Below, piece by piece: positions 1-21,117 of a stretch of DNA of 22,357 nucleotides. Within the stretch, counting starts at the first letter, position 1; every line of letters starts with the position of its first letter. The DNA lies in IMG/VR virus record IMGVR_UViG_3300035698_029964, positions 1-22,357 of that record. One strand, 5' to 3'. The notes below the pieces were generated by a model. It searched no databases, was not told the DNA's origin, and saw nothing but the letters and a program-made list of their open reading frames with translations. The position numbers and the translations under genes are program-made. Source of the DNA: a virus.

Positions 1-353
1 AATCCATCTTCATAATCTGCTTTAAATTTAATCATATTCATACTCATCATCTCATCAAAAGATGTACCAGATTCAATCACAGCTAATGTCCAATAATAAA
101 GTGAATCTCCCAACTCCTTCTTTACTTTTATCATATCTACTGATCTATTATAACCGATTCCCTTCTTACATAAATCAAGAATTTCTGCTGCTTCAGTCAC
201 CATTCCCATAGATGCATGTAGAAATCCTGGTGAGATATAATCTTTACCTGCCATTTTGAAACGGGGAGATGTTGTTCTTTGGAGATCAAGAACAAACTTT
301 CAATATTCAACTTCTATTTCATTTTTTATCCGAAATACTTCATGATTATCCAT
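1..353 (-). pseudogene. MazG-like nucleotide pyrophosphohydrolase, in-frame TGA, cut by window edge
   Basis: Reading from the ATG at 351-353, which has GAGG about 8 nt upstream, the frame gives 17 codons, then TGA at 300-302, then stays open to the window edge. The part after the stop carries the all-alpha NTP pyrophosphatase signature: E-A-A-E (codons 54-57) followed by E-L-G-D (codons 80-83), the ExxE/ExxD metal-binding helices of MazG-like enzymes, which hydrolyse (d)NTPs to (d)NMP and pyrophosphate. The residues around the stop (VEY*KFVLDLQ) resemble the first conserved helix of the family, so the stop lies inside the fold rather than before the true start. The only later start before the motif is the ATG at 252-254, which lacks a visible Shine-Dalgarno. 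Many genes here end in TGA, so recoding to Trp is unlikely. A nonsense mutation, readthrough or a base error all remain possible. The C-terminus lies outside the window. Confidence 0.7.
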
Positions 354-363
354 TTTATTTTCC

Positions 364-852
364 TCATGACCAATTACTAGGATCTGTATTATAATATTGA
401 ACCCATTCATATATATACTGACAAACTATACATTTTCTCTTAGGAACTGATTTTCCTTTATACCGCGGATGTTTCTTACATGTACTTGGAAGATATCTCT
501 GAAGCCCTTTTAAAAGTTCCACTCCTAAAAGACCTCTCTTTACCATCTCTTCTGTATGTATAGCACAATGAACATTCCATTCAGCAGCAGCTAAATGATC
601 TTCACCTCTATCTCCTTCAAGATATTCATCTAAATGACGTTGAGCACTATTAAGAAATTCTACAACCGGCATTCCTTTTTCCCAATTACGAAGATCATAT
701 TTTATAGCCCCAGTTTCAAAATGTCTATTCACTCGTCTATTAGAAATAGGACTTCGAAGTGTAGGCAATCCCTTACCAACCATTCTATCTCTTAAAGCTC
801 CAGATTTAAATTTTCTCCGATTTCCTGTATCTTTAATAACAAATTTTTCCAT
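364..852 (-). CDS. DUF5664 / dATP-dGTP diphosphohydrolase-like protein with C-terminal zinc ribbon
   Basis: A 162-aa protein. Residues about 44-103 match the phage family known as dATP/dGTP diphosphohydrolase N-terminal domain (DUF5664): TGAIKYDLRNWEKGMP, then SAQRHLDEYL, then a GED acidic patch followed by AAAEWNVHCAIH. In characterised relatives this all-alpha His/Asp domain removes pyrophosphate from purine dNTPs; the activity here is inferred from the family. The C-terminus adds C125-x2-H128 and C141-x2-C144, a probable structural zinc site. It ends in TGA 11 bases before the MazG-like gene, so two nucleotide pyrophosphohydrolase-type genes are adjacent and probably cotranscribed. The family occurs in many ordinary phages and in Z-genome (2-aminoadenine) phages. 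No PurZ is present here, so base replacement cannot be claimed. Confidence 0.75.
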   Translation of the reverse strand: MEKFVIKDTGNRRKFKSGALRDRMVGKGLPTLRSPISNRRVNRHFETGAIKYDLRNWEKGMPVVEFLNSAQRHLDEYLEGDRGEDHLAAAEWNVHCAIHTEEMVKRGLLGVELLKGLQRYLPSTCKKHPRYKGKSVPKRKCIVCQYIYEWVQYYNTDPSNWS

Positions 853-5199: not shown

Positions 5200-5558
5200 T
5201 TTATCTCTCCATACAAATCTTTATATCCACAAAGAACTATAAAATGCTGTTTACCATCTAAACCTGTATCATAAAATCCCCAAGGCACACTTTTATCATA
5301 AGCAACCCTCATCCCAACTTTTAATTGATCTGAAGTTGGATGCCATATATCATCCTTATCATAATATCCAGGCCCTACACTTAACAAAATTCCTGTCCCA
5401 TCCCGATAATATTTCCTAAACTGACCAGGAATCTCAATTATACTTTTCTTACTCTTAAACTTTTCTGGAGGCGGAGTACGATAAATAAATACTTTATCTG
5501 ATATAGCTCTATATGGAAAACAAAGATTTCCGTCTTTATCATGCCAAGGAGTTTTCAT
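5196..5558 (-). CDS. GroES/Cpn10-like co-chaperonin
   Basis: A 120-aa protein with the 10-kDa co-chaperonin layout: AISDKVFIYRTPPPE (residues 18-32), a Lys/Ser loop corresponding to the mobile loop (about 33-46, ending IIEIPGQF), then GTGILLSVGPG (54-64), then QLKVGMRVAYDKS (78-90) and a final beta strand around HFIVLCGYKDL. GroES caps the GroEL ring. Phage versions such as T4 gp31 adapt the host chaperonin to fold the capsid protein, and its place next to the packaging genes fits that job, by inference. No GroEL gene is present. The sequence between GPG and KVG is longer than in bacterial GroES, and the N-terminus has about 15 extra residues. It overlaps both neighbours by 4 nt. Confidence 0.7.
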   Translation of the reverse strand: MKTPWHDKDGNLCFPYRAISDKVFIYRTPPPEKFKSKKSIIEIPGQFRKYYRDGTGILLSVGPGYYDKDDIWHPTSDQLKVGMRVAYDKSVPWGFYDTGLDGKQHFIVLCGYKDLYGEIK

Positions 5559-5929
5559 TTTACACCAACACTTTCATTAATATATGTAGCAATATTACCT
5601 TCTGACTCTTGAACATCAACACGATAACATTTAGATATCTGCAAATATATCCAATAAGCGAGATTTTCAGATGTAGGATTTAATCTAACAGGATCATCTT
5701 CATCAAGCATAGATCTAAACAATTCATTTAAATTCTGATGATCAAGTCGAAAATGAATTTTCTTCTTTATAAGAGCGAAATCTTCAACCATACCATTTTC
5801 ATTTCGTTCACCTTGACAATAAATAGTAATTTTTAAATTATGACCGTGAAGTCCATTACATTTACTTTCATAAGGTAGATTAAGTTGATGAGCTATAGCT
5901 ATTTCGAATGTTTTCTTTATCCTAAACAT
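5555..5929 (-). CDS. queD: 6-carboxy-5,6,7,8-tetrahydropterin synthase (QueD family)
   Basis: A 124-aa protein close to the family's usual length of about 120. QueD makes 6-carboxytetrahydropterin from dihydroneopterin triphosphate, the second step towards preQ0. All key elements are visible: zinc ligands H14 (in IAHQLN), H28 and H30 (in LHGHN); catalytic C24 (ESKCNG); the D63-H64 pair (RLDHQNLNEL); the NPTSENLA motif (84-91); and the late Glu around E110 (VQESEGN). With the QueC-like gene at 13359-13964 it forms part of a 7-deazaguanine route. QueE and FolE are not in the window and may be elsewhere on the genome or supplied by the host. A good GGAG site precedes the ATG. Confidence 0.88.
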   Translation of the reverse strand: MFRIKKTFEIAIAHQLNLPYESKCNGLHGHNLKITIYCQGERNENGMVEDFALIKKKIHFRLDHQNLNELFRSMLDEDDPVRLNPTSENLAYWIYLQISKCYRVDVQESEGNIATYINESVGVK

Positions 5930-6319: not shown

Positions 6320-6868
6320 CTATTCTATCAATTCATATAAAGAATTTAAATGACGATATTTCTCACCCATACCCATCCCACACCCAACCAAAAATCCATC
6401 ACCTTCATAAGTATAACCTACTACATCTGGAACATCCATGATATTCTGCTTAATACGATTTATCTTCTTATCAACCAAAACTGCTATATTAATAGATTTT
6501 GGAAGTAAATCTCCTCCAATAAGTATCTGATATGCTTCATCAAGTGTTAATCCTGAATCAATCACATCATCTACTATCCAAACATCTCTACCATTAATAT
6601 CTTCTTTAGTAAGATCAAGAGGATAAGTGACCAAAAGACTACCATTTGATTTAATTGTTTTATCATAAGAAGATAAACCTATATACCCTACTCTTATATC
6701 ATATTTTTGAGAACTGAATAAATTTAAAAGAGAATAAGTTGTAAACATTCCTCCTTTTAGAATACCAATAAAAGTTATCTTATCCTGATTAAACTTCTGT
6801 ATCTTCAAAGCCATATTCAAAATATGTGCACGTATATATCTTTCATTTTGAATTATATTTAATTTCAT
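6320..6868 (-). CDS. Hypoxanthine/guanine phosphoribosyltransferase-like protein
   Basis: A 182-aa type I phosphoribosyltransferase, the usual size of bacterial Hpt. The PRPP-binding motif VWIVDDVIDSGLTL is at residues 96-109, with the adjacent acidic pair D100-D101. The pyrophosphate loop GILKGG is at 35-40, and the flexible-loop region has SSYDKT around 66-71, like the SSYG segment of HPRTs. A late aromatic/valine region (VPDVVGYTYEGDGFLVGCGMG) matches the purine-binding end of HPRTs. It would join hypoxanthine or guanine to PRPP to give IMP or GMP. It may salvage purines released from host DNA, or act on a related base; because deazaguanine genes are nearby the true base is uncertain. It ends in TAG; GGAG precedes the ATG, which overlaps the Rad50-C stop. 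Confidence 0.75.
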   Translation of the reverse strand: MKLNIIQNERYIRAHILNMALKIQKFNQDKITFIGILKGGMFTTYSLLNLFSSQKYDIRVGYIGLSSYDKTIKSNGSLLVTYPLDLTKEDINGRDVWIVDDVIDSGLTLDEAYQILIGGDLLPKSINIAVLVDKKINRIKQNIMDVPDVVGYTYEGDGFLVGCGMGMGEKYRHLNSLYELIE

Positions 6869-7494
6869 ATCAAATTCTCCACTTTTTCAATATGACTAAT
6901 TCCTTTTATTTTACTTACATTAAATCGAGCATCAGCTAATTCCATTAACTTGGTTCTATGTGTAGTTATAATATATTGTGTATCAAACATTTCTGAAAGA
7001 TTTCGAAGTACATCTCCAAATAATACCAATCTCTCTCCATCCAAATTCCGACAAGGTTCATCAATTACAAAAACATTCCTTGTAACAGGATATTTAATAG
7101 CCCAACATACTAAACGTAATACAAATGAACATACATCAACAACTCCAAATCCAAGATCATCATCAGCATCTTTCAATAAATATCTTCTATCATCTATAAT
7201 AGCATACATTCGAATTTCAGGTTGATTTCTTGCTATAACACTTTCCATTTCAAAAGAATAATTTTCACCAAATACATAGTGTAATGCTTGAGTAATTAAT
7301 TTTTCAAAAACTGCTTTGAATTCACTTTGAGCTAGTATTCCTACAACATTCATTACATCAAGAGCTTCTTCTAAATTAACTAGATTATTTTTTAAGCCCT
7401 TAATCTTTGTCTCTGTTTCATCTTTTTTTGTAATAAGTAATTCTTGAGCAGCTCTTTTAGAATTTAAAAATTTTTCATATGTAGCTAAATTCAT
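6865..7494 (-). CDS. Rad50/SbcC-like ATPase, C-terminal half
   Basis: A 209-aa protein corresponding only to the C-terminal lobe of an SMC/Rad50 ATPase. Residues about 10-50 are helical or coiled coil. LGFGVVDVCSFVLRL (114-128) occupies the place of the ABC signature helix. Walker B is VFVIDE (141-146, E146 catalytic), followed by a D-loop NLDGERL (150-156) and the H-loop TTHR (H179). There is no Walker A, which is on the other half at 10161-11267. The two must meet to make a complete ATP site, in the same way the N and C lobes do in single-chain Rad50. The Mre11-like gene lies between them. It is an intact gene with its own start overlapping the upstream small gene by 4 nt, not a fragment left by a frameshift. 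Confidence 0.8.
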   Translation of the reverse strand: MNLATYEKFLNSKRAAQELLITKKDETETKIKGLKNNLVNLEEALDVMNVVGILAQSEFKAVFEKLITQALHYVFGENYSFEMESVIARNQPEIRMYAIIDDRRYLLKDADDDLGFGVVDVCSFVLRLVCWAIKYPVTRNVFVIDEPCRNLDGERLVLFGDVLRNLSEMFDTQYIITTHRTKLMELADARFNVSKIKGISHIEKVENLI

Positions 7495-7661
7495 CTTGAT
7501 TTTCTCTTAAATAATTTCGTTCTACGACAATTCTTACAAGTTACTTTAGATTTTATACGTGTAGCTTTGTCTTTATCTGTTGTATAAAAAGCATAATGAA
7601 AAAGACCACAAGCCATATAATAATTTGTACCACCAGGATATTTACCGTAATGCTTTTTCAT
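7491..7661 (-). CDS. Small zinc-finger-like phage protein
   Basis: A 56-aa basic protein. C18-G-x2-H22 in the first half and C42-x2-C45 in the second (VTCKNCRRTK) suggest one zinc-binding site of the type common in short phage proteins with an 'aCG ... vTCk.C' pattern. The start was chosen from GGGAG six bases before the ATG. It ends in TGA overlapping the start of the Rad50-C gene (ATGA), giving tight coupling. Function unknown; nucleic-acid binding is a reasonable guess. Confidence 0.65.
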   Translation of the reverse strand: MKKHYGKYPGGTNYYMACGLFHYAFYTTDKDKATRIKSKVTCKNCRRTKLFKRKSR

Positions 7662-7670
7662 TTCAACTCC

Positions 7671-7895
7671 CTAATCTATATACATTTCAATACAAGCCTC
7701 TTCTTTCATCTTATCAGGAAAAAGAATAAGAGGATCTCCAGGTTCATACTGAAATCTATCATTACCTTCACCATTAAAAGTGACCCAACGAGACTTAGAA
7801 CTTATATCATCTTTTTCTATTACAGCATATCCAATTAATTTACTCTGCTGTTTCTTCTTCGGAAGTAGCTGTAGAAATAATTTCCGCCATTTCAT
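7671..7895 (-). CDS. Hypothetical protein
   Basis: A 74-aa protein starting MKWRKLFLQLLPKKKQ. The ATG at 7893-7895 was chosen for the GAGGAG sequence seven bases upstream, which lies inside the previous gene, so the two genes overlap by 56 nt in different frames. The first 20 residues are basic and amphipathic; the rest looks like a small beta-rich domain (KLIGYAVIEKDD ... RWVTFNGEG ... DPLILFPDK). No catalytic motif or known family recognised. The unusually long overlap might mean the true start is later, but no ATG, GTG or TTG exists between the overlap and the conserved-looking part. Confidence 0.5.
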   Translation of the reverse strand: MKWRKLFLQLLPKKKQQSKLIGYAVIEKDDISSKSRWVTFNGEGNDRFQYEPGDPLILFPDKMKEEACIEMYID

Positions 7896-8106
7896 TATCC
7901 AACTCCTCAATTTTCTTTTTATTTTTAACAGACTTAGCTTTTAATTCTTCAAATTTTACTTGACCTTCCTTAAGAGAATTCACACCAAACTTTTCTTTTA
8001 ATTGTCGAAGAATTTGATCTTTCTTTCCTTCTTGTCGAGCTTTCTTTGTCTGTAAGTCAGAAATACTTTGTTTTTTCCTTTTTAATGCTTCTATAGTATT
8101 ACTCAT
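7840..8106 (-). CDS. Small coiled-coil protein of the recombination cluster
   Basis: An 88-aa, strongly charged protein that looks helical throughout. Residues 5-35 and 50-78 form heptad-like coiled coils (ALKRKKQSISDLQTKKARQ; ELKAKSVKNKKKIEELDNE), joined by a turn near KFGVNSLKEG. Short proteins with this helix - FG-turn - helix pattern occur beside SbcC/Rad50-like genes in phages, but no function is known to me. The acidic tail is TSEEETAE. A very strong ribosome site (GAGGGGGAAG) precedes the ATG. It sits between the Mre11 and Rad50-C genes and could pair with the coiled coil of the split ATPase; that is a guess. Confidence 0.6.
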   Translation of the reverse strand: MSNTIEALKRKKQSISDLQTKKARQEGKKDQILRQLKEKFGVNSLKEGQVKFEELKAKSVKNKKKIEELDNEMAEIISTATSEEETAE

Positions 8107-8530
8107 CTTTCTTCCCCCTCAATTCCATTCCTTCAGGTATTGAAATCAAATTTATATCAGGACCTAAAACAATAAAATCTATATCAAAATTTTCTTTTGC
8201 ATTCTTAAGAAGATCAGATAAAAATTCAATATCCGAAGACCATGATTTTAATTGCAAAACGTAAATCTTACCTCGCTCAAGTGATTTAACATATTCTATT
8301 GTTAAATTTTTTGTCTTTCTCCAACGAAATATTAATTCACTAGCATTATCTAAAACAACATCATCTACTACAAATATATCATTTCCACAATCAACAAGCA
8401 TTTGATTTACTTGTTTTATAATTGTTTCTTTTTTCTCAATACTCCAAGGTTCAAATAAATGTTCTTGTCTAAATTCATTCGTTTCAGTAAACTTTTTTAT
8501 CTGTTTCACTGTTTCTTTTTTACTATTCAT
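8099..8530 (-). CDS. Hypothetical protein downstream of Mre11-like gene
   Basis: A 143-aa protein, MNSKKETVKQIKKF... . The ATG at 8528-8530 overlaps the Mre11 stop (ATGA) and follows AGGGGAAG, so it was preferred to a longer in-frame start inside the Mre11 gene. The first 60 residues are predicted helical; the rest alternates strands and helices (DIFVVDDVVLD, KIYVLQLKSW, DIDFIVLGPDINLISIPEG), suggesting an alpha/beta fold. I recognise no family or active-site pattern. Position in the Mre11-Rad50 cluster suggests a recombination accessory role, without direct support. Confidence 0.55.
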   Translation of the reverse strand: MNSKKETVKQIKKFTETNEFRQEHLFEPWSIEKKETIIKQVNQMLVDCGNDIFVVDDVVLDNASELIFRWRKTKNLTIEYVKSLERGKIYVLQLKSWSSDIEFLSDLLKNAKENFDIDFIVLGPDINLISIPEGMELRGKKDE

Positions 8531-9462
8531 TTCTTCCCCTTTATTTCTTCTAAGCACTCATCAATAATATTTTTTACTTCTTGATTTGAATTTTTCTCCT
8601 TAAAAACATCTAAAAGTATATGTTTCCATCCTACAGTCTTCTGACCACGATTTTTCAATTCTTCAATAAATTTAAGTAAAATATCCGAATCTTTCTTTTC
8701 AATTCTTTTAAAATTAAATACTTTCTCGGCTAGTTCTATATCTAATTCAATCACTTTACTTTCATTAGTCTCTGTATCAAATATAACTACAGCAGGCTTA
8801 TGCTCTAAATCAAACTTTGAAATTGTTTTTCTAACAAGAACTCCTGGATTAATAATCGTCCTTCCTTGATAAGATGACATAAATCTATAATGATAATCTC
8901 CTGCTACAACTAAATTATAATCAGAGTATTTTCTAAGAAATTGATTTGGACCTATTAATTCTTGACCTGGATATAAAGGTCTATCACCAATCATTTTATG
9001 TATTACAAGAATATTATAACTATCTTTATTTCTTACTTCAGGAACTTTTTCACCAAAACTAGCTCCATACAATTGAACTGGCTGTTCTGAATCATCATCT
9101 CGATATCCAAGTGAAATCACTTTATTATCTGCTATTTGTAAAACTTCTGCTGCTTGTAAAACTGCTAAAGGGCTATTAGGTAAAGTAGACAAACTATGAC
9201 CTGTTAAATCATGCTGACCAGCTATGGAAATCATTTGAATATTGCGTGTACCAAAAGTATCTATCAAAATAGAAATTACTCTATTTGCTACAGTGGGGGT
9301 ATCACAAAAATCACCGGGTTGAATAATATACCTACAATTATTATCTTGAAATATAGATAAAGCTTGTTTTGTTTTTCTAATCAAAGTATCCCAATAATTA
9401 TCCGTCCTTCTATTGGGACTTCGATTTGTATAATGGGTATCCCCCAAAAGTCCTAGTTTCAT
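8527..9462 (-). CDS. Mre11/SbcD-like metallophosphoesterase nuclease
   Basis: A 311-aa protein with the calcineurin-like phosphoesterase motifs of Mre11/SbcD in order: GDTHYT (D8, H10), QPGDFCD (D51), AGQHDL (82-87), VIHKM (H155) and GDYHYRF (D189, H191). The third motif has Gln where the usual GNHD has Asn. A conserved INPGVLVRKTIS segment follows, then a C-terminal capping region to residue 311. With Rad50 it would process DNA ends using two metal ions; T4 gp47 and T5 D12 are phage relatives. The gene is nested between the two halves of its predicted ATPase partner. It starts after AGGGAA and ends in TGA overlapping the next ATG. Confidence 0.85.
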   Translation of the reverse strand: MKLGLLGDTHYTNRSPNRRTDNYWDTLIRKTKQALSIFQDNNCRYIIQPGDFCDTPTVANRVISILIDTFGTRNIQMISIAGQHDLTGHSLSTLPNSPLAVLQAAEVLQIADNKVISLGYRDDDSEQPVQLYGASFGEKVPEVRNKDSYNILVIHKMIGDRPLYPGQELIGPNQFLRKYSDYNLVVAGDYHYRFMSSYQGRTIINPGVLVRKTISKFDLEHKPAVVIFDTETNESKVIELDIELAEKVFNFKRIEKKDSDILLKFIEELKNRGQKTVGWKHILLDVFKEKNSNQEVKNIIDECLEEIKGKK

Positions 9463-9478
9463 AATTCCCTACTTTCTA

Positions 9479-9808
9479 TCAACTATGACGATTAACTGTT
9501 TTTTCTAAATCCTCATCGTCTTTTATTATTCTAACCATTTCTGCTTCTTGTTCTCTAATAATTTGAAGTATCTGTTTTTTATCTGAAAAACTTTTAATAT
9601 CTAATACTAAATTCTCTAAAACTCTTCTTAAATCTTCATCTACCAAATACCCATCACAAGTATAAACTTCCCCATTAGCTTTAAAATTTCTTTTTCTATA
9701 TCCATCTATATCTTTTATAGAATCAAAATAACCACGCAAATCCAAAATATATTTTGAAGAATCTACATGATCACCACTCATTCTTTCTTCCAAACTTCTA
9801 TTGCTCAT
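9479..9808 (-). CDS. Hypothetical protein
   Basis: A 109-aa protein with no recognised family. The first 40 residues contain SGDHVDSSKYILDLRGYFDS; the second half is a charged helix pair (EDLRRVLENLVLDIKSF ... QILQIIREQEAEMVRIIKDDED). No Cys pairs, membrane segment or catalytic pattern. AGGAGAAT lies just before the ATG, overlapping the possible frame-shifted end of the preceding gene. Its place between the Rad50-N and Mre11 genes suggests it belongs to the same operon. Confidence 0.55.
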   Translation of the reverse strand: MSNRSLEERMSGDHVDSSKYILDLRGYFDSIKDIDGYRKRNFKANGEVYTCDGYLVDEDLRRVLENLVLDIKSFSDKKQILQIIREQEAEMVRIIKDDEDLEKTVNRHS

Positions 9809-9828
9809 CTTATTCTCCTATACCTTCC

Positions 9829-9845
9829 TTTTCATCAAATGAAAA
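9829..9845. other. Short inverted repeat in intergenic gap
   Basis: On the minus strand the sequence reads TTTTCAT-TTG-ATGAAAA, a perfect 7-bp stem with a 3-base loop. It lies in the 42-nt gap between the stop of the gene at 9851-10150 and the next start. It is too AT-rich to be a strong terminator and may be chance. It also lies inside the possible -1-frame extension of the upstream gene, where a hairpin after the slip site could in principle stimulate frameshifting. Confidence 0.3.
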
Positions 9846-9850
9846 ATTAC

Positions 9851-10150
9851 TTAAACCGCCTTCTTTATTAACCAAGTTTTACTATCTATATCACAACCTT
9901 TAAGATAATTATCTAAAGCTCCCTCAAGCATAAAAACTGATAAATCTATATTTAATCTTAAAATATTAGCATCAAATAAATCTAAAGTTTCGGATAATTT
10001 TTCTTCATCATTTAAAATAGATTGAACAATCGCTCTAACTTCAATAGGAAATTCTGAAGATAAGAGACCTTCTCCATAAGTCAATATTATAGTTTTTACT
10101 AATGAAAAACCTAGTTTCCTTAAAGCTTCAAGACAATTAAAAGTTATCAT
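9851..10150 (-). CDS. Hypothetical protein, possible frameshift near its end
   Basis: A 99-aa acidic helical protein (EALRKLGFSLVKTIILTYGEG ... EVRAIVQSILNDEEKL ... LRLNIDLSVFMLEGALDNYLKG). No family recognised. In its own frame it ends ...WLIKKAV with TAA at 9851-9853. The -1 frame is open from 9878 down to TAA at 9810-9812 and reads NKEGGLSNFSFDEKEGIGE, a plausible acidic phage C-terminus that stops one base before the next ATG, as is usual for genes here. A single-base error or a programmed slip at ATA-AAG-AAG would join the two parts. AAGGA precedes the start. Confidence 0.55.
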   Translation of the reverse strand: MITFNCLEALRKLGFSLVKTIILTYGEGLLSSEFPIEVRAIVQSILNDEEKLSETLDLFDANILRLNIDLSVFMLEGALDNYLKGCDIDSKTWLIKKAV

Positions 10151-10160
10151 TTCATAATCC

Positions 10161-11267
10161 TTATTTATTACTATTCAATAAACATGTCTTAGTTTCATCG
10201 CAAAGCTTTGACCCACAGTATGGACAATCTTCCAATTGACCCATAAGTTCTTTCTCTTCTACCAATAATAATTTAATCTTACTATCATCATTAAAAATCT
10301 CTTCCGTTATATCTATCAAATCATCTAACAAACCTAACAATTCATCACTCATTTTACAATTATTAGAATACTGTTGAATAAATATATCTACATCAGAAAT
10401 TATCTCCAAATCATCTGGAAGAGAAATCTTTTGTTTTTTAATTATCTCTAATTCATCTAATAATGATACAAGATTTTCTTTCTCTTCATTTACTTTTAAA
10501 TATAAATCCATTATCTTATCACTACTCTGAAAAATTTCATCAATATTATCTGGAAGATATATAATACTTTTTTCAAGTTCTACTAACTCTAAAAGAAAAT
10601 CTGATAACTCTTGTTGTTTTACTTCTAAATCTTTATTTTTCTCAATAAGAATTTTTGTTTTATTTATCTTACTTTCAAGCCTATCAAGATCTATCTTCAT
10701 AAGCTCAATTAATTCTTTTTCTATTACTTCTAAATTATCTTGACAATTTACTATCTTACCTTTTTCTGCACTAACTTTACTTCTAAGTAATTTAACAACA
10801 TTATCTACTTCATCTAATTTAGTAATAGAACGAATATATGTAGCAACCTGTCCTGGTGTATCAAAAATTAAAAAATACTGTTCACTTTGTTTTTGAATAT
10901 TTATATCAGATAAATTTAAAACTTCTAAAATCGGTTTTGGGGGATTGACGCCAAAAGATGTAAAAGGAATATTCTCATCAGACATACTAAGAATATACTC
11001 ATTATGATTTTTTTTCATTAACCTGGTGATACCGACTTGTTTTCCATTATTATCTACAACTAATTGAGCTAATGCTTGATCTTTTCCCCATTGAATTATA
11101 TTTTTATTTTCTCCATGAGGTCTATTAGAAGCAATCCAATTCAATCCCCTCACCATATTGGATTTTCCATTATCAGAAGGTCCTGTAAATACATTTATAT
11201 GAGGAGAAAATTCAATTTTCACATCCTCATAAGTTTTAAAACCTTTTAATATTAATTCTTTAAACAT
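10161..11267 (-). CDS. Rad50/SbcC-like ATPase, N-terminal half with zinc hook
   Basis: A 368-aa protein holding the first half of a Rad50-type ATPase. It opens FKELILKGFKTYEDVKIEF, the typical SMC N-terminus. Walker A is GPSDNGKS (29-36). IQKQSEQYFLIFDTPGQ near residues 122-138 is like the Q-rich segment of phage Rad50 proteins. Residues about 165-340 are coiled coil. It then ends in a Cys cluster, C348-P-Y-C351, with C356 and C362 close behind, resembling a zinc hook (CxxC). There is no signature helix or Walker B; these are on the separate protein at 6865-7494. A normal Rad50 would continue through a returning coil of similar length, but the C-half supplies only about 50 residues of coil. 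It starts four bases after the HNH gene's stop. Confidence 0.82.
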   Translation of the reverse strand: MFKELILKGFKTYEDVKIEFSPHINVFTGPSDNGKSNMVRGLNWIASNRPHGENKNIIQWGKDQALAQLVVDNNGKQVGITRLMKKNHNEYILSMSDENIPFTSFGVNPPKPILEVLNLSDINIQKQSEQYFLIFDTPGQVATYIRSITKLDEVDNVVKLLRSKVSAEKGKIVNCQDNLEVIEKELIELMKIDLDRLESKINKTKILIEKNKDLEVKQQELSDFLLELVELEKSIIYLPDNIDEIFQSSDKIMDLYLKVNEEKENLVSLLDELEIIKKQKISLPDDLEIISDVDIFIQQYSNNCKMSDELLGLLDDLIDITEEIFNDDSKIKLLLVEEKELMGQLEDCPYCGSKLCDETKTCLLNSNK

Positions 11268-11270
11268 AAA

Positions 11271-11576
11271 TTAAACTCTTTTTTCAAAATTACGATTAGC
11301 AAGATTTAATTTTTTCGTAACATTTTTTAAATTAGATTTTTGATTATTCAATGTTAATTTATCTTGATGATCTGTTTCCATATCATCAGGACAATTCATT
11401 ATAAATCGATGCATATAAATTGATTTCTTCTTACTATCTCCGTTTATTGATCGTCTAGCATAAATTCGTGTACCATTACCAGTAATATTTGCATACCACT
11501 TAAATTGATTTACACGATTAAAATCCTCATCATCTACTAATGCAAAAAGACCATTTGTTAAAGAAATAATTTTCAT
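11271..11576 (-). CDS. HNH endonuclease (free-standing, homing type)
   Basis: A 101-aa protein of the short phage HNH family. The N-terminal part, ISLTNGLFALVDDEDFNRV...FKWYAN, is the beta segment that often precedes the HNH domain and reads the target. Then comes IYMHRFIMNCPDDMETDHQD followed by LNNQKSNLKNVTKKLNLANR, giving the H...DH...N...N arrangement (about H55, D69-H70, N77, N82). Such genes move by cutting an allele lacking them. It lies directly upstream of the N-half of the split Rad50 gene. The upstream ribosome site is weak and the ATG overlaps the previous stop. It could be active or a domesticated remnant; the catalytic positions look intact. Confidence 0.75.
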   Translation of the reverse strand: MKIISLTNGLFALVDDEDFNRVNQFKWYANITGNGTRIYARRSINGDSKKKSIYMHRFIMNCPDDMETDHQDKLTLNNQKSNLKNVTKKLNLANRNFEKRV

Positions 11577-13358: not shown

Positions 13359-13964
13359 TTACCTAATTTTTCTCTCATATAAAGCTAATTTATGAGTTAT
13401 ACATGGATTACATTTACCACACATTCTAATATTTTTTCCTCTACTTATAGGATCTTCACACCACCAAAAACATTTTTTAGGAATTTTTAAAGTATCTAAC
13501 TCCTGAAGAATATCATTTTTAGATTTGTACTCAAGAGGATACTTTACTGATACATTTGTTAAATTGCGGAGAAAACATATATTTTCAAAAATACGATATA
13601 CTTGAGTATAACCTGACCAACAAGTATCACCTTCATGATACCCAAAATGTACATTATCATTACTCTTTATAAAAGGTAAAATAGCACAAATCCACAAGCA
13701 AAGTTGACCATGTCCCGATGCTTCTACATCTAAAGCAGAAGAAATAGTTACAGTATAATTCTTTATATGATAACCTTTACGCTTTGCATAAACTAAATAA
13801 TTTTTTCTAACTTCCTTTTCTTTAATTACTTTTTTAGGATGAAGTTTTACTTTCCAATCAATAGAAATTGCTATAACAGGAGACTCTTTAGAAGATAACT
13901 TAGCCAAATTATGTAAAACTAAAGTGCTATCACAACCACCTGACCATACCACAATATTTCTCAT
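13359..13964 (-). CDS. queC: QueC-like 7-cyano-7-deazaguanine synthase (PP-loop ATPase)
   Basis: A 201-aa protein. The PP-loop nucleotide-binding motif is SGGCDST (8-14), at the very N-terminus as in QueC. The C-terminus has a four-Cys zinc site, C169 then C182-x2-C185-x2-C188 (MCGKCNPC), like QueC's CG.C..C but with a longer loop before the last three Cys. QueC converts 7-carboxy-7-deazaguanine to preQ0 using ATP and ammonia. With QueD in the same operon direction it points to preQ0 production, for phage DNA modification or for tRNA queuosine. It is shorter than E. coli QueC (231 aa) and diverged in the middle, so another PP-loop amidating enzyme is possible. AAGGTG precedes the ATG. Confidence 0.72.
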   Translation of the reverse strand: MRNIVVWSGGCDSTLVLHNLAKLSSKESPVIAISIDWKVKLHPKKVIKEKEVRKNYLVYAKRKGYHIKNYTVTISSALDVEASGHGQLCLWICAILPFIKSNDNVHFGYHEGDTCWSGYTQVYRIFENICFLRNLTNVSVKYPLEYKSKNDILQELDTLKIPKKCFWWCEDPISRGKNIRMCGKCNPCITHKLALYERKIR

Positions 13965-17520: not shown

Positions 17521-17688
17521 CTAATGATTCCGACAAGTAAGAAGATCTACAGTTTGAACTTTTACCAACTCAGTGTTAGCTCTTGTAAAATCAGCCTCAG
17601 CATCAGTACGTCTAATTTCAGCTTCTAACAATTTAACTTCAGCATTTGTACGATTAACTTCAGCATGCTCTAATGCATTCATAATCAT
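17521..17688 (-). CDS. Small helical repeat protein
   Basis: A 55-aa protein, MIMNALEHAEVNRTNAEVK..., with an 11-residue-like repeat 'RTNAEVKLLEAEI / RRTDAEADFTRANTE' that should form an amphipathic helix. Two ATGs lie six bases apart; AAAGG fits the first and AGG the second. It is the first gene after the promoter at 17738-17767 and ends in TAG 18 bases before the clamp loader start. Function unknown. Confidence 0.6.
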   Translation of the reverse strand: MIMNALEHAEVNRTNAEVKLLEAEIRRTDAEADFTRANTELVKVQTVDLLTCRNH

Positions 17689-17960: not shown

Positions 17961-18529
17961 AATTCTATATCTGATTCTACTTCATCACCCCATACATCCC
18001 ATCCAAGCGTTTTCTCACGAGCAAATAATTCTATACGGGGTAAATCACCAACAAGTTGAACAATTCGTTTTCTCACTTCACTAGGTTTACAACTATGCTT
18101 CAATCTTTCACTTTCAACTAAAGCTCTTACATTATGTCTAATTACAAACTTATGTGCCTTTGAACCTTTTGTTGCAAGCAAACATAATTCAATACCACTT
18201 TTCATTGTATAAGCCCCCATAAAACATATAGGCTTACCTTGTTTATTTTTCTTTAACCAATCAAAACCAATTGTTTTATAAGAAAACCCCCAAGAATTTA
18301 TTACGCCAAGACATTTTTCTAAATGATAATCTGTTGTCCATATAAATAAAAGACAATTTTCCGCAGAAATTTTATTCACCGATAAATTCATTATCTCCTG
18401 TGAACTCATAACTTTGTATGGAGGTCTTCGCATACCTTTTACAGTAGTACAATTAGGTTCTGCTGTACTATCATTATAGTAACTCCAAGGTGGATCTACA
18501 TATATTATATTGTATTTTAACTCTTTCAT
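17957..18529 (-). CDS. MT-A70-family adenine N6-methyltransferase
   Basis: A 190-aa methylase. Motif IV is YVDPPWSY (D12-P-P-W15) at the N-terminus, followed by MSSQEIMNL, LLFIWTTDYHLEKCL, and FDWLKKNKQGKP. The S-adenosylmethionine-binding end is represented by ELCLLATKG and RIELFAREKTLGWDVWG. This order (DPPW first, SAM site last) and size match phage MT-A70 enzymes, which methylate adenine N6 in DNA. The target sequence cannot be read from the protein. It may protect phage DNA from host restriction. It overlaps the DNA polymerase gene by 4 nt (ATGA) and is preceded by only a weak ribosome site. Confidence 0.85.
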   Translation of the reverse strand: MKELKYNIIYVDPPWSYYNDSTAEPNCTTVKGMRRPPYKVMSSQEIMNLSVNKISAENCLLFIWTTDYHLEKCLGVINSWGFSYKTIGFDWLKKNKQGKPICFMGAYTMKSGIELCLLATKGSKAHKFVIRHNVRALVESERLKHSCKPSEVRKRIVQLVGDLPRIELFAREKTLGWDVWGDEVESDIEL

Positions 18530-21117
18530 AATGGCTCTAGATCATACCAACTAATCAACCCTTTCTCCCAACTAACTGATAAAGGTACATCTCTTTGCCA
18601 TTCAAATCTTTTTGAAACCAAAATTTCTTCTGAAAGACTTATAACATCTTCTACTTCTTCTGGATATGCATCAAAATCTAAACTATCATGTACTTCCATT
18701 CTAGCCAATGATCTTAATTTTTCATGAGCCATCTTTTTATCTATTTTATCTCCTGCATCTAACAATAAATGGAATGCAGGTCCTTGAATTGGTGTATTAT
18801 AAATTTTATTTATATTCAATGGACCAGGACGTCTAGCTCCAGTTACAAGTTCTATATAACCATTTTGTTTATAATCACTAATAGTACGATTTTGCCATTC
18901 TTTAATGTAATGGTATTCACTCCAAAACTCTTTTTGAACTTTTTCAATATGATCTACATGAATCCCAGGAAATGCCATTACTATAGAAGCTGGAACAGAT
19001 CCATAAACACTCGGAAAAACAAATCCATTCTTAGATACATATCTTTCATCTTTTGTAATTAATTTATAATCTTTTTCATAAATTTTTGCCGCCCACCTTC
19101 TATGGGTATCATAAGGATTAGGTCCGCCTTCTGGATGTTCTTGAACCCATTTTTCAAATTCAATTAATTGACGAATAAGTTCAGGATCACCTGAAATCAT
19201 TGCTATCACCCGAACTTCAATACCATCATAATCAACTTCTAACCAAATATTTCCGGGTAAAGGTATAATACATCTTCTAAATTTTCTTTGTTTCTTATCA
19301 TGTTGAAAAACATTCTGTATATTGGGACCATCAGCAGAAGATCTATATGAACGAGTAATATTAAGATTATAACAAGGATGTACATATCCATTAGAATCAA
19401 CAAGCCGCCTATACTCAGTGATTCTTTCAAGTACTTTAGTATTTTTTCGATAAGTAAAAAGAGATGAAATAATTGTTTTCACATCTAAATTTTTTGTAAT
19501 TCCAAGAATTTCCTGTAAAACCGGTTCACCTGTACCTCCCTTACCAGCAGGAGTTCTTCTCTTCTTAGTTTTCTCTATTCCACAGATATCATAAATTACT
19601 TGTCCTAATTGAGCTGGTGAATTAATTTCTAACTCTTTTTCTTTATCTATTTTAAATTGTTTAGCAGCTTCAGTATTAAGAATTAAATTTTTACATTCAT
19701 CCATTCCAGAACCAAATTCATCTTCAAGCTTATCTAATTGATTTAAATCTATTTGTACTCCTCTATCTCTAAGATTCATAAGAAATGAAAGAGAATGAGT
19801 AAAAAATTTATTAAATTTTACTAAATTCTCACCCATTTTTTCTATTTTTGATTTCTGTAAATAATAAGATTTTAATCCATATCTAACATCCCAACAATTA
19901 TAATCGCATACTTTTTCAAGAGGTTCATTTTCTAAATCTACTATATTAACCATATTCTTATATTCATGCCCAGTCATTTCAAAAGTTTGGAATGCTAAAC
20001 CTGTTGTTCTTGGATGACAATTTATAACATGAGCTGATACCATTGTATCATGAATAAAATTATTCATAGGCTGATTTAAAATTTCTCTATTCCATGATTC
20101 TTCCATATTATAATTTTGAACAGTTTTAGGAGCATCACTTTTTAAAAAACATTTAAAAGCTACAGCAATTCGAGTTTGTTCTTCTTCAGTAAATATGTAC
20201 TTATCATTACATTTAAGTTTAAATCCTATTGGAATAAATACAGCTGAATCAACATCATTAGTTAAAGCAATCGATAAAAGCTTCGAATCTTCATAATAAG
20301 GTGAGAGACGATTAGCTTCATAATCATACATTACTGGTTTAATAGAATCACAATAATCTTCTAATATAGCAATTGCTTCATCGATATCAGTAATGCATTC
20401 ATTTCCCTCTGAAGTAAGAGGTTGAGGAAGAGGATCATCAAGATAATTTAATATCTTAGCAAGATCATAAGTAAAAATATTACTATCATCAGGATCTCTA
20501 TTTGAATCTTTTCTATCTAAGAAAAAAGAAGGGCTGTACATACATCCTACCCAACAATTATATTTATGATAAGGAAAGACCTTTCCATGAGTAATATCAA
20601 CTTTAAATTGAATATCACTATCTACTTGTAAAACTCTTTCAATAGCTTGATTTCCAAGACATATAATTAATTTAGGTTGAATTTCCTGAATTTCTTTCTC
20701 AAGATTATCATAACAACATTTAATTTGATCAGAAGTTGGTTCTTTATCTTTTCCTCTCTTACCTTTACCTGGATAACAAGAAACTGCATAAGTTCCTGTA
20801 CAATCTATATCTAAATCTATATCTAAAAGTTTACAAGTGCTTTCAAGAAATCTACTTGGTGCTCCAACAAATGGAATTCCCCTTCTATCTTCTAAAACTC
20901 CTGGAGCTGTTCCTACAAAAAGAATACCTTTTTTACCTTCCCCAAAACTTTTAATACGAGGATTTCTACATTTTTTATCTAATCCACAAAGATTACAATC
21001 AAAAATCTTTGGACTAGATTTCCTTCCAGAAGAAGATCTTTTTTTAGAGAATTTCTCTGGATTATCTTTTTGAAAGAGTTCCCATTTATTTAGAAAAAAT
21101 GATTGCTGCTTACTCAT
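18526..21117 (-). CDS. DNA polymerase family A with N-terminal UDG-like domain
   Basis: An 863-aa replicative polymerase. Residues about 38-225 are a family-4 uracil-DNA glycosylase fold: CNLC (C41, C44) with SCYPG (C114) and KCC (C134/135) as iron-sulphur ligands, and GTAPGVLEDRRGIPFVG (69-85). Motif 2 reads MYSPSFFL (193-200), with Ser where active enzymes have His (YHPS), and GEAPG has become GTAPG, so glycosylase activity is doubtful. Residues 262-420 are the 3'-5' exonuclease: D265/E267 (YDYEAN), N335..E339, HDTM (D357), and Y406..D410. The polymerase domain has motif A VDYDGIEVR (D629), motif B R692...YG706 with one extra residue, and motif C VHDSL (H810-D811). AAGGA precedes the ATG. 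No 5' nuclease domain. Confidence 0.9.
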   Translation of the reverse strand: MSKQQSFFLNKWELFQKDNPEKFSKKRSSSGRKSSPKIFDCNLCGLDKKCRNPRIKSFGEGKKGILFVGTAPGVLEDRRGIPFVGAPSRFLESTCKLLDIDLDIDCTGTYAVSCYPGKGKRGKDKEPTSDQIKCCYDNLEKEIQEIQPKLIICLGNQAIERVLQVDSDIQFKVDITHGKVFPYHKYNCWVGCMYSPSFFLDRKDSNRDPDDSNIFTYDLAKILNYLDDPLPQPLTSEGNECITDIDEAIAILEDYCDSIKPVMYDYEANRLSPYYEDSKLLSIALTNDVDSAVFIPIGFKLKCNDKYIFTEEEQTRIAVAFKCFLKSDAPKTVQNYNMEESWNREILNQPMNNFIHDTMVSAHVINCHPRTTGLAFQTFEMTGHEYKNMVNIVDLENEPLEKVCDYNCWDVRYGLKSYYLQKSKIEKMGENLVKFNKFFTHSLSFLMNLRDRGVQIDLNQLDKLEDEFGSGMDECKNLILNTEAAKQFKIDKEKELEINSPAQLGQVIYDICGIEKTKKRRTPAGKGGTGEPVLQEILGITKNLDVKTIISSLFTYRKNTKVLERITEYRRLVDSNGYVHPCYNLNITRSYRSSADGPNIQNVFQHDKKQRKFRRCIIPLPGNIWLEVDYDGIEVRVIAMISGDPELIRQLIEFEKWVQEHPEGGPNPYDTHRRWAAKIYEKDYKLITKDERYVSKNGFVFPSVYGSVPASIVMAFPGIHVDHIEKVQKEFWSEYHYIKEWQNRTISDYKQNGYIELVTGARRPGPLNINKIYNTPIQGPAFHLLLDAGDKIDKKMAHEKLRSLARMEVHDSLDFDAYPEEVEDVISLSEEILVSKRFEWQRDVPLSVSWEKGLISWYDLEPL

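Follow-up and report, generated by a model that had tools for sequence, protein, structure and literature searches.

The 22,357-nt stretch of viral DNA analysed here (IMG/VR record IMGVR_UViG_3300035698_029964, positions 1 to 22,357; hereafter the window) in all probability encodes a complex of the Mre11-Rad50 (SbcD-SbcC) type in which Rad50 naturally consists of separate polypeptides. The genes of interest lie at positions 6865-11267, all on the minus strand, and the two Rad50 lobes are encoded by two genes approximately 2.7 kb apart, not by one polypeptide (Table 1). The core of this reading, namely that one Rad50 ATPase is made from two proteins, with an Mre11-like gene nearby and in a stably split form, is strongly supported.

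An initial annotation had placed Walker A and a terminal CxxC on a 368-aa protein (the N-half), and the signature helix, Walker B and H-loop on a 209-aa protein (the C-half). The former assignment is borne out (GPSDNGKS at residues 29-36 and CPYC at residues 348-351), and G29, G34 and K35 of Walker A are invariant across the family. In the 209-aa protein, Walker B (VFVIDE) and the H-loop (TTH) are also present as described, whereas the signature holds in part, as an LGFG segment without the serine of ATP-binding cassette (ABC) ATPases. Each half has its own start and stop codons, and neither has the motifs of the other. The CxxC of the window is located at the C-terminus of the N-half, which reads DCPYCGSKLCDETKTCLLNSNK, and not at an apex between two arms of one chain.

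The profile matches of the halves are similarly complementary. The N-half matched AAA_23 with an E-value of 1.3e-10, which exceeds the Pfam cut-off, and PHROG 16465 ('exonuclease') at 5e-22. The C-half matched the C-terminal part of SMC_N at 1.6e-5, under the Pfam cut-off, and PHROG 15167 ('ATPase') at 3e-28. Against archaeal Rad50 models (NCBIfam), the N-half aligned solely to the N-terminal end and the C-half solely to the C-terminal end. Sequence searches of the PDB, which were weak in single-sequence mode, aligned the halves to opposite ends of SMC/Rad50 chains.

The same split recurs in many relatives, and a chance split is therefore excluded; this recurrence also backs the stable arrangement that had been suggested from the window. 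Bacillus phage vB_BboS-125 and Microbacterium phage Magritte each gave tblastn matches to both halves, in separate genes. In Microcystis phage Mvi-JY20, the match was to the C-half, and genes for an N-half and an Mre11-like protein lie just upstream. An initial alignment of four C-halves was too diverse for a pattern scan, and viral contig scans with the window's own halves or with the Mvi-JY20 C-half found no close relatives. The vB_BboS-125 C-half led to 27 viral loci, each of which has an N-half, a 77-79-aa coiled-coil hairpin gene, a C-half, and an Mre11-like gene. In an uncultured 485-kb phage and one relative, the N-half, Mre11, hairpin, and C-half genes likewise lie within a single region. 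Thus, a search of phage genomes for the arrangement, as the initial annotation had proposed, shows that N-half, C-half and Mre11-like genes recur in divergent phages. Each of the 14 whole phage or viral records searched contains a single N-half and a single C-half, and the two always differ in frame or location (split matches within one frame were taken as one, and one marginal extra match at 1e-3 was ignored). No full-length Rad50/SbcC was found in 13 phage or viral records, including the 22-kb window; in these records AAA_23 matched the N-halves and, weakly and below the cut-off, the window's clamp-loader open reading frame (ORF) and one ORF in record G002. The Mre11-like gene is in the same cluster as the halves in nearly all relatives checked, and in Magritte and two relatives the halves are tens of kilobases apart. 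The Magritte N-half (L004:6001-7053, plus strand) has no CxxC and is far from its C-half in the deposited linear record. In vB_BboS-125, an AP2-domain gene (L002:5053-5625, plus strand) lies between the N-half and hairpin genes.

The split form is also present on bacterial chromosomes. A C-half profile matched 67 of 398 sampled Bacillota genomes (~17%) at E<=1e-15; almost all of the matching frames are about 210-310 aa long. N-half, C-half and Mre11 are neighbouring genes in bacterial genomes. Gene context was opened for ten bacterial loci on long contigs, seven of which appear to be linked to recA (genomes G337, G053, G193, G314, G072, G357, and G250). RecA was confirmed by model in the three loci tested (L076, L077, and L082). 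On the opposite flank of the C-half, RNase Y was confirmed in each of four loci tested (L076, L080, L081, and L082). For the other loci, linkage to recA is read from a matching order and size of genes. In two more of the ten loci, L079 and L085, the split operon adjoins a HerA-like helicase. The N-half of one otherwise intact recA-linked operon (L083:5344-6647, plus strand) is broken into ORFs of 109 and 280 aa, which reflects either a genomic frameshift or an assembly error. In the seven recA-linked genomes, the SbcC model TIGR00618 gave nothing at 1e-10 except a partial match in G193, and SbcC_Walker_B matched long frames in G357 and G250 only, although both searches overlook some known SbcC proteins. 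Because these searches were largely empty, the split form may be the only SbcC in several of the genomes, which is indicative only.

Three genomes encode a single, arm-less protein of 684-700 aa comprising Mre11, the N-head, and the C-head, which ties the three parts together. These fused genes adjoin an ORF that looks AddB-like by eye. In a concatenated tree with midpoint rooting and long branches, the fused forms are nested in the split bacterial group (support 0.98), and the window groups with a viral contig (0.74), Mvi-JY20 (0.93), and the huge phages (0.98).

The position of the break is similar throughout. Among 55 complete, distinct N-halves, 53 have a CxxC and end 3-28 residues later, the two exceptions being Magritte and the interrupted gene in L083; from these sequences, the chain is thus cut just past the hook. 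One recA-linked pair aligned to the archaeal Rad50 model (878 positions) at 3-461 with its N-half and at 679-877 with its C-half, so that ~217 positions, corresponding to the distal return arm, are absent from both. N-arm lengths cluster near 180-197, 260, 310, and 355 residues, in steps of ~47, whereas most C-halves have a constant ~50 residues before the head despite this variation. The arm shows clear 44-47-residue internal repeats in Moorella (score 102, versus a shuffle maximum of 43) and in the huge phage (51 versus 38); none were found in some members. In AlphaFold2 models, the arm helices are broken every ~45 residues. The N-arm therefore appears to be built of ~47-residue helical units and may do without a return strand of equal length. 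Most of it probably packs with itself or with another N-arm, in which case the unequal coils of the two halves are no contradiction.

Whether the two halves can form one head was addressed by modelling a relative, L027, in which the N-half and C-half genes are in one frame. The DNA from the N-half through the C-half was translated with stop codons read as glycine, such that the out-of-frame stretch between them serves as a floppy linker. In the resulting AlphaFold2 model, the predicted local distance difference test score (pLDDT) is mostly >90 in both head lobes and ~30 in the linker, and the predicted template modelling score (pTM) is 0.54. With VIA-align 2, the range 1..789 of this model matches single Rad50 or SMC heads; against 4ncj_A, it aligned with 293 of 311 Pyrococcus furiosus Rad50 residues (Z 27.6, root-mean-square deviation (rmsd) 3.1 A). 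The N-half and C-half of L027 are thus predicted to fold into one Rad50-like head. The model of the window N-half aligned to 1f2u_A, a separate Rad50 N chain, over 136 of 149 residues (Z 14.0, rmsd 2.9).

The catalytic residues of the C-half are highly conserved. The Walker B aspartate and glutamate and the H-loop histidine are kept in all 69 distinct C-halves, a count that is inflated by relatedness and yet spans the tree. All 69 also have glycine at the position of the signature serine, a residue that is important in known Rad50s.

In most relatives, a helical-hairpin gene encoding 77-117 aa is located just upstream of the C-half. A hairpin profile trained on Bacillota members matched those of the huge phages (2e-4 and 2e-7) and of L036, a relative of actinophage Magritte (5e-9), and with more members it also matched L037 (7e-7). 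The sequence matches indicate a real family, and the hairpin protein is a candidate third subunit of the split Rad50. The initial annotation had proposed that an 88-aa coiled-coil protein of the window may supply the returning strand. The hairpin gene of most relatives supports this proposal in part, but the 88-aa protein is not significantly similar to the hairpin family (E=6 in a leave-out search, 0.1 with 57 members, and an hhalign probability of 52%). BLASTP of the 88-aa protein against a 94-aa protein of Mvi-JY20 returned nothing, and both agree with the hairpin in position and coiled-coil character only. Separately, a 55-aa helical ORF at 17521-17688 (minus strand) scored slightly better against the hairpin family than the 88-aa protein (E=0.03 versus 0.1), neither being significant. 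The idea that the hairpin is a detached arm copy was considered and found no support, as hhalign showed no kinship between the two.

A mechanism may be proposed from these features. The N-half, with its Walker A lobe, arm and hook, and the C-half, with its short coil, signature-type segment, Walker B and H-loop, would associate in the cell to form one ABC-ATPase head, a reconstitution considered very likely. Two such composite heads would sandwich two ATPs. In known Mre11-Rad50 complexes, Mre11 is positioned at the coil base and ATP gates its activity, and the Mre11-like protein of the window, a predicted nuclease from its calcineurin-like phosphoesterase domain, would behave likewise. ATP use would gate the cleavage of DNA ends or hairpins during phage replication and recombination, and the substrates of the window complex would be ends or branched DNA. 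This lineage would have lost the long return arm that ordinary Rad50 has. The ~50 C-half residues ahead of the head would pair with the base of the N-arm, while the rest of the N-arm may pack with itself as a chain of ~45-residue helices. The separate hairpin protein of most relatives probably braces the arm as a third piece, and its role as a third subunit is plausible.

Several observations weigh against this interpretation. The composite model is that of a relative, was built with an artificial linker, reaches a pTM of 0.54, and comes with neither an error matrix nor ATP, and the model of the window N-half is only fair (pLDDT 72). Internal repeats in the window N-arm are borderline (52 versus 49) and at twice the 44-47 spacing, and the similarity of the window's 88-aa protein to the hairpin family is not significant by sequence. 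Because the signature serine is glycine throughout the family, ATP-driven dimerisation may differ from that of known Rad50s. Finally, the window is a 22-kb fragment, and a full-length Rad50 is possible elsewhere in the genome.

Alternative explanations differ in whether the halves belong together and in how the arm is completed. If the ORFs were functionally unrelated, the N-half would work by itself, as a P-loop protein of RecF- or AriA-like type that carries a zinc tail, and the C-half would be decayed or have another partner. The window N-half does resemble RecF-type heads and, weakly, AriA/mad3-type defence ATPases, and the halves are widely separated in Magritte and two relatives. However, the invariant Walker B and H-loop residues argue against decay, and the strict co-occurrence of the halves, the one-chain fusion of the same parts, and the predicted composite head argue for a common function; this alternative is very improbable. 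A defence-system identity was also considered and not adopted, as PADLOC matches were partial and spread over many ATPase families. A recent accidental breakage, whether through insertion of a mobile gene (a homing endonuclease, for instance) or through an assembly error, could be imagined from the HNH-like 101-aa ORF adjoining the N-half (a likeness seen by eye, with no Pfam match) and from the AP2-domain gene inside the vB_BboS-125 cluster. Yet the same break point occurs in divergent phages and bacterial chromosomes, and neither half has lost its open frame or its invariant motifs. Given these relatives, recent breakage is scarcely credible and was rejected.

Two further alternatives accept the split Rad50 and concern its arm. 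The hairpin (in the window, perhaps the 88-aa protein) could be the missing returning coil, rebuilding a near-normal coiled coil together with the N-arm and C-coil. This would fit a hairpin gene usually located between the N-half and C-half, at the place of the lost return arm, the ~217 model positions missing between the halves, and the independent finding of the hairpin in the actinophage relatives L036 and L037. In contrast, a protein of 77-117 aa is too short to pair with an arm of 260-360 residues, hhalign shows no hairpin-arm kinship, no adjacent hairpin was found in Magritte and L038, the 88-aa match is not significant, and the one-chain relatives are without both arm and hairpin. This version is considered rather unlikely. 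Canonical Rad50 hooks pair two CxxC motifs, and the N-arms of two protomers might similarly pair in parallel, with their terminal CxxC motifs joined by one zinc and one common arm per dimer. The position of the CxxC, at the extreme C-terminus of the N chain, and the lack of an equal return strand would suit this arrangement. However, helix breaks every ~45 residues and the 44-47-residue repeats suggest a folded array, and extra cysteines or histidines near the CxxC in some members could complete a single-chain zinc site; a shared arm is thus improbable. The Mre11-Rad50 complex with a naturally divided Rad50 remains the preferred interpretation. A broader proposal is made tentatively, at somewhat less than an even chance: that there is a widespread and so far undescribed class of three-chain Rad50 (an N-half with an arm and a terminal hook, a hairpin, and a C-half with a serine-less signature), encoded on bacterial chromosomes beside a recA or HerA-like gene, forming the main or only SbcCD there, shared with divergent phages, and having a self-folded or shared arm in place of the classic two-stranded coil.

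Table 1. Features of the split Rad50 locus in the window, and the fused proteins of three relatives
Feature	Position	Strand	Basis
Rad50 N-half, 368 aa: Walker A lobe, helical arm, C-terminal CPYC hook	10161..11267	-	AAA_23, PHROG 16465, AlphaFold2 model
Walker A codons GPSDNGKS, N-half residues 29-36	11160..11183	-	sequence reading
Hook codons CPYC, N-half residues 348-351; 17 residues to C-terminus	10215..10226	-	sequence reading
Rad50 C-half, 209 aa: short coil, signature-type segment, Walker B, H-loop	6865..7494	-	PHROG 15167, family alignment
Signature-type codons LGFG, C-half residues 114-117; Gly at ABC ATPase Ser position	7144..7155	-	sequence reading
Walker B codons VFVIDE, C-half residues 141-146	7057..7074	-	sequence reading; D145, E146 invariant in family
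H-loop histidine codon, H179 of C-half (TTH, residues 177-179)	6958..6960	-	invariant in family
Mre11/SbcD-like phosphoesterase, 311 aa	8527..9462	-	Metallophos_2 4e-9, Metallophos 4e-5, both exceed Pfam cut-offs; PHROG 100 SbcD-like
88-aa coiled-coil protein; possible hairpin-gene counterpart by position and character only	7840..8106	-	position
56-aa ORF between the halves; candidate member	7491..7661	-	no Pfam/PHROG family match above chance
152-aa ORF between Mre11-like and 88-aa genes; candidate member	8099..8557	-	no Pfam/PHROG match above chance
109-aa ORF between N-half and Mre11-like gene; candidate member	9479..9808	-	no Pfam/PHROG match above chance
99-aa ORF directly downstream of N-half; candidate member	9851..10150	-	no Pfam/PHROG match above chance
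Arm-less Mre11+Rad50-N+Rad50-C	L064:1764-3818	+	
Arm-less Mre11+Rad50-N+Rad50-C	L065:2152-4254	-	
Arm-less Mre11+Rad50-N+Rad50-C	L066:2083-4170	-	

The Mre11-like gene is located between the halves, as initially annotated, but besides it six small ORFs of at least 50 aa were counted there and not seven small genes, and one of the six is doubtful (a TTG-start overlap). Nuclease and ATPase halves are separate ORFs in the window, with no Mre11-Rad50 fusion, and a PDB sequence search with the Mre11-like protein gave no match at 0.01. A query with a makeshift Mre11-like peptide was also empty and is given no weight. A phosphoribosyltransferase gene (6320-6868, minus strand) has a 4-base overlap with the end of the C-half gene, and directly upstream of the N-half is a 101-aa ORF (11271-11576, minus strand) that looks HNH-like by eye and has no Pfam match at 1e-3. 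Elsewhere, the window encodes a family A DNA polymerase with a uracil-DNA glycosylase domain and RecA-like, gp32-like, clamp, and clamp-loader proteins, which fit a replication and recombination setting for the complex. The polymerase and glycosylase domains are fused in an 863-aa protein (18526-21117, minus strand). A 6-pyruvoyl tetrahydropterin synthase (QueD-type) and a QueC-like protein (5555-5929 and 13359-13964, minus strand) hint at 7-deazaguanine modification of DNA or RNA by the phage.

In comparison to ordinary Rad50/SbcC, the window proteins share the SMC-type ABC-ATPase head, Walker A and B, the H-loop, the CxxC hook, and a nearby Mre11-like partner gene, whereas they differ in being encoded by two genes, in the break just past the hook, in the loss of most of the return arm, in having glycine for the signature serine, and in arm steps of ~47 residues. 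In the crystallised P. furiosus Rad50 head (for example, 1f2u and 3qkr), the N and C lobes are also separate polypeptides, and both sequence and structure searches list such short Rad50 N chains, which shows that two chains can be crystallised as a head. That two-chain head is a laboratory construct from one natural gene; in contrast, the split in the window is natural, and its N chain retains a long arm. Phage T4 gp46 and gp47 are likewise a phage recombination Rad50/Mre11 pair, but gp46 is a single chain. The T4 pair has a shortened coiled coil (PMC3175470). Mimivirus R555 is an Mre11/Rad50 fusion protein, with nuclease and ATPase in one chain (PMC3175470). Such fusions share with the split form a non-canonical Mre11-Rad50 in viruses and bacteria, although the rearrangement in R555 is the opposite one and no separate C-half is described. 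For Bacillus phage 0305phi8-36 and Anaerostipes, one SbcC P-loop segment was reported as not observed (PMC3175470), and this could be another split. PHROG 16465 ('exonuclease') and PHROG 15167 ('ATPase') hold the N-half and C-half, respectively, and are listed as unlinked families, one of them under 'other'. PMC7824862 describes jumbo phages in which DNA polymerase III alpha and RNA polymerase subunits are split, a precedent for phage enzymes divided into genes, although the enzymes differ, and passages of it treat phage SbcC/Rad50 as one ABC ATPase. No description of a split Rad50/SbcC was found in the open-access literature searched, and the vB_BboS-125 genome paper makes no mention of SbcC or Rad50.

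Overall, the split looks like a genuine, stable and apparently overlooked version of Rad50 that is present in phages and on bacterial chromosomes. Many annotations that now stand unconnected as 'ATPase', 'exonuclease', or hypothetical are thereby flagged as belonging to one repair machine, also in bacteria for which both model searches came up without an ordinary SbcC. The split Rad50 also offers small, separable subunits for structural work. The long, hook-bearing coiled coil of Rad50 is believed to play a central part in holding DNA ends, and a lineage that is cut at the hook and is without the return arm, while keeping the head motifs, is a natural experiment on which parts of the arm are needed.

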